From an uncultured Hyphomicrobiales bacterium (GTDB taxonomy: Bacteria; Pseudomonadota; Alphaproteobacteria; Rhizobiales; Aestuariivirgaceae): a stretch of 32,140 nt of DNA. Shown piece after piece: positions 6,025 to 9,505 of the stretch. The stretch's first letter is position 1, and each line of letters begins with the position of its first letter. The position numbers and the translations under genes are program-made. The stretch covers positions 1 to 32,140 of the forward strand of contig CADEEO010000020.1 of the NCBI GenBank assembly GCA_902826365.1. The letters run 5' to 3'. The notes below the pieces were generated by a model. The model saw nothing but the letters and a program-made list of their open reading frames with translations, made no database searches and was not told the origin of the DNA.

Positions 6025-6660
6025 CTATTCACTCAAGAAACCCACCCTGGCATGGGAGCCGTCGCAATAGGGCTTGTTGGCGGAATTGCCGCAGCGGCAG
6101 AGGGTTGTTTTGGTTACGCGGTTGATGGTCCGGCCGGTGCCGCTCACCACTTCGAGATTGCCGCTGACCAGAAGCGGTCCATTGAGCTTTGGCGTGATGG
6201 CGACGGGGCCATTGCGGGCTTCCAGGGCTTGCGAGTCCTTTTGGGGCGGCTCACCAGTGGCAGCAAAGCCTGCAGCCGAATGGCTGCCATCGCAATAGGG
6301 TTTCTTCTTTGACTGGCCGCAGCGGCACAGGGTGGCCCGCAGGCCCTGCTCTGCTCCATCGATAATGAGAGGGGCGTTGATAGCAAGCGGACCGTTCTCG
6401 CGTACCCGCACGGTGTTCACGAGGGGCGGAGCTTCGCCCAGGCCGCCATCCACCCGTTCATAACGAATGGCGCCGGACGGGCAATTATGGGCAAGCTGAG
6501 AGATGCCTTCCGAATTGGCCTTGTCAGGGTAAATCCATTCGCCCTTCACGTTGGGCACGAAGACATCAGGACGGTCCAGCACGCAATTGCGGGAGTGGAT
6601 GCAGCGGCTGCCGTCGAAATGGATGATGAATTCGTGGCCGCGAACCGTTTCTATCGCCAT
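6025..6660 (-). CDS. Iron-sulfur protein: ferredoxin-like domain plus two CDGSH domains
   Basis: A 211-aa cytosolic protein predicted to carry three iron-sulfur centres. The N-terminal domain (1-70) has Cys20, Cys26 and Cys60 in a divergent mono-cluster ferredoxin layout ending NCPSGAI. Then come two CDGSH (iron-binding zinc-finger-like) motifs: Cys112, Cys114, Cys123, His127 and Cys188, Cys190, Cys199, His203, each with the CRCG...KPYCDGSH pattern that binds a [2Fe-2S] cluster through three Cys and one His. Proteins with this order occur in bacteria; roles in redox sensing or electron and cluster transfer are proposed for the family but unproven here. GGGAGG lies 8 bases before the ATG. The gene starts 18 bases after the VUT transporter and is probably the last gene of an ndk-VUT-CDGSH operon. 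Confidence 0.9.
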   Translation of the reverse strand: MAIETVRGHEFIIHFDGSRCIHSRNCVLDRPDVFVPNVKGEWIYPDKANSEGISQLAHNCPSGAIRYERVDGGLGEAPPLVNTVRVRENGPLAINAPLIIDGAEQGLRATLCRCGQSKKKPYCDGSHSAAGFAATGEPPQKDSQALEARNGPVAITPKLNGPLLVSGNLEVVSGTGRTINRVTKTTLCRCGNSANKPYCDGSHARVGFLSE

Positions 6661-7615: not shown

Positions 7616-7642
7616 TTGGGCCGCGTTTTAGACGCGGCCCAA
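7616..7642 (-). terminator. Rho-independent terminator after the OmpA-family gene
   Basis: An 11-base-pair perfect stem: arm 7616-7626 (TTGGGCCGCGT) and arm 7632-7642, with a 5-base loop. Read on the minus strand it lies 21 bases after the OmpA-family stop and is followed by TTGATTTC, a modest T-rich tail. It separates that gene from ndk, whose ATG is 25 bases further on. Confidence 0.7.
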
Positions 7643-7663: not shown

Positions 7664-9505
7664 TTACTCGTCAAGCTCGCCCAAAACGGACGTGGCGCGG
7701 CTCACGGAAACCCGGCGGTTTTCCTGTTCCGCCTCGGCGGTGGGAATTTTCAGGTAGCGCTCGCCATAGCCTACGGTTTGCAGGTTTTGCGGCTCAATGA
7801 CGTAATAGGTCGTTAGCGCCTTCTTGATGGCGGCAGCGCGCTCGCGCGACAGCTTCAAGTTGGCGGCATCGGAACCCACCGCGTCGGTGTGGCCTTCGAT
7901 CAGGAACACCTCGCGCGGGTGCTTGCTCAGGACACGCTCCATGATCTCGCCGATACGGTCGAGATTGCCCACCTCTTCAGGGCGCACGAAGGCTTCGTTG
8001 AAGCCAAAGCGCACGGTATCGATTTCGATGCGCGGCAGGGCCTCGCGCAGATCAGGAGAGGCTTCAATTTCCTCTACCGTGTATTGGCGGTCAATTTTCC
8101 GGCGCGGCGCCGCGACGAGCACGTCTTCCAGCTCCTCGTCGTCAACTTCGGCGGCATAGACATCGTCCTGCTGGTCCGGATCATAGCCTTCGCCCAGTTC
8201 AATATCATACTGGTCATCCTCATATCGCGAGGCAAGCTCAGCCTGGCGCTGACGGCGTTCGCGCATCAGCCGTTTCTGGAGCAGCGCTTCATCACGCTGC
8301 CTGACTTCCCGCCAATAGGCGCGCTGATCTGCGCCATAGCGTTCGTCCCGGTCATACTGACGGTATACTTCCAGACGGCGGCGAAGCTCGTAGTCCTGCA
8401 GCTCATCGGACGGCCGGCGGTCATTCAGCACGATATCAAGGTTGAAGGTGTAATCCCTCTTGCTGAATTTTGACGGCTTGGGGGCCGGCTGGCCTCCAGC
8501 ATCGGGCTTGGATGGTTTGGGCGGCTCGGCCACCGCCACGCGGTTACGCAGGATTTCACGCTCGACACGCAGCTTCTTGCGCAGCGCCTGCTCGGTTTTG
8601 CGGGAGAGTTCATTGCCTGCCATCAGCTCACGAATGCCATCAAGCCGCTTGCGCAGATCTTCATCGGAGAGCTTGTCGGCGGGCGTTGGATCGTCAAGAT
8701 AGACCTTGGCCTTGGCTTCGGCTGCGGGAACTGCCGCGTTGCCGTCCAGTTGCTGGGACTGCTTTGCATCGGCTGGCGCAGCGGCGGCCGGCGGCTGTGC
8801 CTCAGCGACGGGCGGCTGTTCAATAACGGGAGGCTGCTCCACGACGACAGGCGGCGGTTCGGCTGCTGGCGGCTGCGCAGCGGTTTCGGGCTGCGCCTGT
8901 GGCGGCGATGTCTGGGCCGCGGTCTCGCGCGCCATCAATTCTTCGCGGGCTGCCTTGGCCATCCCGGCCAACTGCGCCTTTGTTTCATCAGGCAGTTTCT
9001 TGGCCTTGGAGAACTGGCGGGCCGTCTTGAAACGGTGGTCCAGTTCCTTGGTGCTGAGTTCGCTCAACGGGCGCTGATCGTTCAGAAGATTGGCCACGTC
9101 AGGCGGAAGTTCCACTGCCGCCGGGGCTGCGGCCTCGGCGGGCTGTTCAGCCGGCGCTTCACCTGCTGGCTGTTCGGCTGCAGGCTGGGCTGCCTGCTGT
9201 TCGCGGGCGGCTATTTCACTGCGCGCCGCCTGGGCCATGGCCTGCAACTGGTCGCGCGTTTCGGACGGGAGGCCTTTCATTTTCGAGAAACTGCGGGCCT
9301 GCTTGGCGCGGTTGCCAAGTTCATCGACTGAAAGTTCGGCAAGAGGCCTGCCGTCATTAAGCAAGACCAAAACTTCTTCCGGAACTTGCGGCGCTGCCTC
9401 TTCAACAGCAGGTTGCTCTTGGGCCGGGGCCTCGTCCTGGGCAAATGCCGGGGCCGAAAATAATGCCAAAGCCATAAGACTGGCGGTCAGGGGTAGGAAC
9501 TTCAT
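7664..9505 (-). CDS. Exported OmpA-family peptidoglycan-binding protein with four degenerate repeats
   Basis: A 613-aa envelope protein. A signal peptide (1-22, cleaving after AFA) is followed by four related units of about 58 residues at 44-102, 135-193, 266-325 and 355-420. Units 1 and 2 share the pattern LLND.RPL.ELS..EL..R.K.AR.FSK.K.LP.ET..QL; units 3 and 4 keep only the core and are more basic and Arg-rich. They are joined by long Pro/Ala/Glu/Gln linkers (103-134, 194-265). The C-terminal OmpA domain (about 494-603) has GHTDAVGSDAANLKLSRERA, with Asp541 and Arg556 in the positions that contact diaminopimelate in peptidoglycan. GGAGG lies 8 bases before the ATG at 9505. No beta-barrel is evident, so it is probably a periplasmic or lipid-free linker protein and not a porin. 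It has its own terminator. Confidence 0.85.
   Translation of the reverse strand: MKFLPLTASLMALALFSAPAFAQDEAPAQEQPAVEEAAPQVPEEVLVLLNDGRPLAELSVDELGNRAKQARSFSKMKGLPSETRDQLQAMAQAARSEIAAREQQAAQPAAEQPAGEAPAEQPAEAAAPAAVELPPDVANLLNDQRPLSELSTKELDHRFKTARQFSKAKKLPDETKAQLAGMAKAAREELMARETAAQTSPPQAQPETAAQPPAAEPPPVVVEQPPVIEQPPVAEAQPPAAAAPADAKQSQQLDGNAAVPAAEAKAKVYLDDPTPADKLSDEDLRKRLDGIRELMAGNELSRKTEQALRKKLRVEREILRNRVAVAEPPKPSKPDAGGQPAPKPSKFSKRDYTFNLDIVLNDRRPSDELQDYELRRRLEVYRQYDRDERYGADQRAYWREVRQRDEALLQKRLMRERRQRQAELASRYEDDQYDIELGEGYDPDQQDDVYAAEVDDEELEDVLVAAPRRKIDRQYTVEEIEASPDLREALPRIEIDTVRFGFNEAFVRPEEVGNLDRIGEIMERVLSKHPREVFLIEGHTDAVGSDAANLKLSRERAAAIKKALTTYYVIEPQNLQTVGYGERYLKIPTAEAEQENRRVSVSRATSVLGELDE

Follow-up and report, generated by a model that had tools for sequence, protein, structure and literature searches.

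Gene layout and neighbourhood

The DNA analysed here (hereafter the window) is a stretch of 32,140 nucleotides from an uncultured Hyphomicrobiales bacterium (contig CADEEO010000020.1), which carries a gene for an OmpA-family protein between positions 7664 and 9505. The gene lies on the minus strand; coding on the plus strand of this interval was ruled out by in-frame stops. As an initial annotation of this DNA had proposed, an array of four repeat units is framed by a signal peptide and a C-terminal OmpA domain, and the unit limits suggested there lie very close to the profile-derived ones in the following list.

7664..9505, minus strand: whole gene, 613 residues, OmpA-family protein with four helical units; ATG at 9505, stop codon ending at 7664
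9440..9505, minus strand: signal peptide, residues 1-22; AFA precedes Gln23, cleavage site judged by eye
9203..9364, minus strand: unit R1, residues 48-101, of the variable upstream type A; from the unit profile
9089..9202, minus strand: Pro/Ala-rich linker, residues 102-139, between R1 and R2
8927..9088, minus strand: unit R2, residues 140-193, type A; alone folds at mean pLDDT 89.8
8702..8926, minus strand: Pro/Ala-rich linker, residues 194-268, between R2 and R3
8540..8701, minus strand: unit R3, residues 269-322, of the conserved penultimate type B
8432..8539, minus strand: linker, residues 323-358, between R3 and R4
8270..8431, minus strand: unit R4, residues 359-412, of the conserved last type C; first helix below pLDDT 50 in the full-length model
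8033..8269, minus strand: acidic connector, residues 413-491, net charge -15
7715..8008, minus strand: OmpA domain PF00691, residues 500-597, containing Asp541 and Arg556
7616..7642, minus strand: terminator-like hairpin of 11 pairs directly after the stop codon; consensus match

The 613-residue protein contains no cysteine and is therefore not a lipoprotein. Terminator-like hairpins are not enriched in the region (two found, where shuffles average 3.3). An ABC amino-acid transporter is encoded upstream of the gene, and a nucleoside diphosphate kinase and a protein of a vitamin-uptake family are encoded downstream. Among the matches listed, these neighbours are conserved in part of the relatives only, and those examined indicate no pathway. 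Elsewhere in the window, the minus strand at 6025-6660 encodes a protein that combines a divergent 4Fe-4S domain with two iron-binding CDGSH stretches.

Statistics and identity of the repeat

Four units (R1 to R4) of 54 residues each were located in the window protein by profile search. When pairwise local alignments were compared with 2,000 shuffles, R1 and R2 scored 170 (shuffle maximum 56), R3 and R4 66 (49), R2 and R4 63 (43), R2 and R3 55 (50), and R1 and R4 47 (46); these five of the six pairs were never equalled, and the score of 43 for R1 and R3 was equalled by 11 of the 2,000 shuffles. A profile of 117 units, from which the window protein as well as loci L002 to L006 were excluded and which is not wholly independent, as its units were first found with a window-seeded profile, recovered R1 to R4 at 61.8, 59.1, 57.9 and 42.3 bits, respectively, whereas none of 1,000 shuffled versions of residues 23-491 scored above 13.2 bits. 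With the same profile, the reversed window protein gave no score above zero. The units thus align well above chance, and the four-copy repeat claimed in the initial annotation is real. Its consensus is roughly FLADRRPASELSDEELRQRLKAARDLSADNGLSPDTRQALRQKARADRAELRAR. The description of units 3 and 4 as Arg-rich holds for their Arg counts (9 and 13), yet their net charge is near balance (+2 and +1).

In a Pfam scan of the window protein, OmpA (PF00691) was the sole family above its cut-off, so that the repeat, which the initial annotation had not recognised as a named domain, indeed receives no name from Pfam. When 28 diverse units were scanned singly, 19 families were matched, each from one unit only, DEK_C giving the best match (E 0.0004); a Pfam name that fits one of 28 units does not describe the repeat family. 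The LEM domain (PF03020), considered for unit 3, was rejected at 10.8 bits against a cut-off of 24. Among the matches listed, the open-licence literature held no description of the 54-residue repeat.

Predicted fold

Modelled alone by AlphaFold2 from an alignment of 12 rows (taken from the window, L002 and L003), unit 2 formed three helices with a mean pLDDT of 89.8. In a full-length model, units 1 to 3 had three helices each, in blocks at pLDDT about 73-88. Unit 4 also had three, the second and third at about 74-83 and the first (residues 349-360) below 50, which makes it the least certain bead. Most linker residues fell below 50. The full-length model had a pTM of 0.21 and an OmpA domain below pLDDT 50, its alignment of only 3 nearly identical rows being too shallow for this domain. 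AlphaFold2 thus predicts the small helical module that had been anticipated, confidently for units 1 to 3 and partly for unit 4, and the region did not turn out to be disordered and devoid of a conserved repeat. No beta-strand was predicted before residue 492 in the full-length model, and hence no N-terminal barrel.

A Foldseek search against the PDB returned no match with E <0.3 for the unit fold. A second structural comparison matched it to various helical bundles with Z values no higher than 7.6. These include one chain from the EMC2-EMC9 structure (6y4l_A; identity 15%, Z 7.6 and rmsd 2.4 across 68 residues) and the VPS4B MIT domain (4u7y_A; identity 9%, Z 7.0 and rmsd 2.5 across 68 residues), many bundles scoring alike. 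Z values of such size are common among helical bundles, so no kinship with MIT or EMC chains follows.

Distribution of the repeat

HMMER's composition filter hides Arg/Gln-rich units (L071 showed none with the filter and two with filters off), and the family, order, class and phylum counts are therefore lower bounds. On this basis, the unit itself was matched in at least 54 of 69 genomes of the window's own family at E 1e-5, and the whole-protein query in at least 66 of the 69, partly via the OmpA domain alone. At E 1e-3, the unit was matched in at least 21 of 199 genomes of an order sample. Three of these genomes (G108, G147 and G216) were matched only in a SecA-like protein and were set aside as chance matches; of the remaining 18, 5 belong to the window's own family and 13 to four further families. 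In a class sample (385 genomes) and a phylum sample (299 genomes), the window's own genome was the sole match at E 1e-5, likewise as a lower bound. A single-unit query was far less sensitive, matching 3 of the 199 order genomes. In a scan reaching close relatives only, the two named carriers were metagenome-assembled genomes of Aestuariivirga sp. and of a Hyphomicrobiales bacterium. At E 0.01, no unit was found in some congeneric genomes that are nearly complete (G012, G013 and G026), so the gene may be dispensable.

An OmpA-like domain was present in all 39 proteins that we analysed, which are a subset of all matches; as the whole-protein query had retrieved 30 of them, this co-occurrence is partly circular. 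A fair test is provided by the 18 order-sample genomes found via the unit alone, and in 18 of 18 the unit-bearing frame also holds an OmpA-like C-terminal domain, in line with the association expected from the initial annotation. Unit-bearing frames in G022 and G068 stop at the end of the sequence and are silent on the OmpA domain; the frame in G061 contains it.

The SecA-like frames include one of 943 and one of 982 residues, and the matching stretch is nearly identical among them. The name is our own assumption, made from one sequence, the two others being judged by the matching stretch. With the repeat profile, the N-terminal region of this protein (L072, L073 and L074) reaches 14-17 bits, which calls for caution with E values near 1e-4. 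A second OmpA gene with units is present in some genomes of the family, namely G039, G040 (on C13 and C17) and G044 (on C417 and C460), and the pair in G039 is adjoining (C93, 20942-24129).

The OmpA domain and related systems

PF00691 matched residues 500-597 at 52.8 bits, against a cut-off of 27.2. Asp541 and Arg556, which we take to be the conserved residues of the OmpA diaminopimelate site, are invariant in 39 of 39 proteins, counted, as for unit types and copy numbers below, after L004 and L005 had been dropped as duplicates of L003 and L002. They sit in TD and RA motifs, aligned with solved OmpA-like chains including Omp38 (3td3). According to PMC6572160, it is by two conserved residues that the C-terminal domain of OmpA holds the wall. 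Given the invariant Asp and Arg in the OmpA motif, peptidoglycan binding by the domain of the window protein is likely, as judged from sequence.

The window protein thus has the same C-terminal domain as OprF (5u1h) and Omp38 (PF00691), with the conserved Asp and Arg, but in front of it carries helical beads on linkers instead of a beta-barrel. A classical OmpA porin was rejected on the grounds that the model has no N-terminal barrel and that the NCBIfam porin OmpA model scored 25.4 bits against a cut-off of 277, its best stretch being residues 498-581. A Pal lipoprotein was also rejected (no lipobox Cys; TIGR02802 at 40.1 bits against 125.35). Overall, NCBIfam models match the C-terminal part, and none of the 25 listed (of 29) reaches its cut-off.

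Unit types, copy number and constraint

Units were labelled by their position from the C-terminus, the last being C, the one before it B and all others A. The nearest unit in another protein carried the same label for 138 of 141 units, a count that includes close orthologues. In 500 trials in which labels were shuffled within proteins, such matches averaged 52 and never exceeded 76. Only 8 of the 141 units had their closest relative in their own protein. Between proteins, B units were on average 47% identical, C units 45% and A units 33%, the last value mixing several positions; between types, identity was 24-28%. From these position-specific types and nearest-neighbour counts, the third and fourth units of the window protein are read as two old conserved types, not decayed copies, and the first two as members of the class that grows and shrinks. 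The earlier view of a "graded" array of "decaying" copies was therefore wrong, as units 3 and 4 belong to types that keep their position across bacterial families and have low pN/pS (see below).

Copy number varied among the 39 proteins: two units in 4 proteins, three in 12, four in 19, five in 3 and six in 1, these being minima, since some proteins (probably L016 and L023) end at a contig or locus end. In L018, units 3 and 4 are 89% identical, the result of a recent A-unit duplication. Across the 39 proteins, linkers located upstream of unit B ranged from 23 to 286 residues in length, and the linker between B and C from 23 to 92.

The mean net charge was +1.6 for type A, +2.4 for B and +1.1 for C, and in the window protein the first three linkers carry negative net charges (-7, -7 and -6). 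Mildly basic units of this kind, set against acidic linkers and present in three or four copies in 31 of the 39 proteins, could themselves bind peptidoglycan or another envelope polymer, the array then making many weak wall contacts and being no spacer. We consider this unlikely, as the units have no Pfam likeness to a named wall-binding domain and their position-specific types suggest distinct tasks rather than interchangeable repeats.

In a codon comparison of the window protein with its two nearest relatives only, for which synonymous divergence was high and unevenly estimated, pN/pS was 0.05-0.13 for units 2 to 4 and 0.09-0.12 for the OmpA domain. Unit 1 (0.17-0.27) resembled linkers 1 to 3 (0.20-0.33), and the acidic connector lay at 0.16-0.17. 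Moreover, the N-terminal linker (residues 23-47) was constrained like the units (0.08-0.09). These values bear on the idea that the whole region is a low-complexity, disordered spacer and the repeat a decaying relic with no fold. The long Pro/Ala linkers, the big length differences among relatives and the low confidence that the full-length model assigns to part of unit 4 would fit such a relic. It is nevertheless very improbable, because the units are kept across several bacterial families, unit 2 has a confident helical model, and units 2 to 4 are under constraint, the most conserved units being those that had been called decayed.

Proposed role in the envelope

The best explanation as a whole, to which we give an even chance, is that the protein forms a peptidoglycan-anchored periplasmic arm built as beads on a string. 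After export, the protein would probably be soluble in the periplasm, where its C-terminal OmpA domain may grip peptidoglycan non-covalently via the diaminopimelate residue of the latter. The N-terminal part would consist of compact three-helix beads strung on flexible Pro/Ala linkers. The two beads nearest the OmpA domain (types B and C) probably contact another envelope component specifically, and the upstream type A beads and their linkers may set the reach or the number of contacts, which duplication would alter. The suggestion of an envelope spacer with a putative binding module, made in the initial annotation, is thus plausible. Several observations count against the arm: the N-terminal linker is conserved like the units, a constraint that a mere spacer does not need; unit 4, one of the two beads proposed to be functional, has the weakest fold in the model; the gene neighbours examined indicate no pathway; and no unit was found in the congeneric genomes named above.

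What we describe appears to be a new version of a well-known type of wall-anchored spacer, made with a repeat that is real, conserved in one bacterial group and unnamed in Pfam. We also entertain, as a possible if doubtful extension, that this undescribed three-helix repeat of the Hyphomicrobiales, joined to OmpA in complete frames, provides in its two wall-proximal copies a site at which an envelope partner docks specifically, and in its upstream copies an evolvable ruler of the distance between contact and wall. The repeat would supply a name and a profile for many proteins presumably annotated just as "OmpA family protein". It would also offer a testable system of barrel-less OmpA proteins in bacteria with their own tie between outer membrane and wall, and the conserved wall-proximal units, as opposed to the variable distal ones, would point to where a search for the partner belongs. 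The finding alone alters no pathway.

PMC11527210 reports that Hyphomicrobiales barrels are tethered covalently to the wall by LD-transpeptidases, and lists 'ompA' among the hits of a transposon screen in an Agrobacterium strain that apparently retains one LD-transpeptidase. Both observations, the second tied to the window gene by name only, suit a protein that is attached by its N-terminus to an outer-membrane protein, or covalently to the wall, as an extra link between outer membrane and wall beside the covalent barrels. The N-terminal linker conserved between close relatives would suit it as well. We rate this link as improbable, since the sequence gives no membrane anchor, a lack that, for the outer membrane, counts against the arm too, and since four OmpA relatives from rhizobia and Methylobacterium are without the units.

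These four relatives are encoded on megaplasmids (in Shinella, Sinorhizobium meliloti, Mesorhizobium and Methylobacterium aquaticum) and were among the best rows of a plasmid collection, in which Roseinatronobacter also appeared. Their C-terminal part is 42-49% identical to the window protein over residues 467-608 or 467-611, and, as in the window protein, the N-terminal part is long and of low complexity, but the four contain no units even with filters off. In the rhizobial relatives L084, L086 and L087, a similar-looking stretch replaces the units, with motifs like RETI.R..G..IVTI.N recognised by eye; it is perhaps a different N-terminal module. Finally, besides the gene described here, five further places with OmpA domains were observed in the same genome (G000; C171, two on C7, C94 and C126), the one on C94 in a frame of 679 residues.
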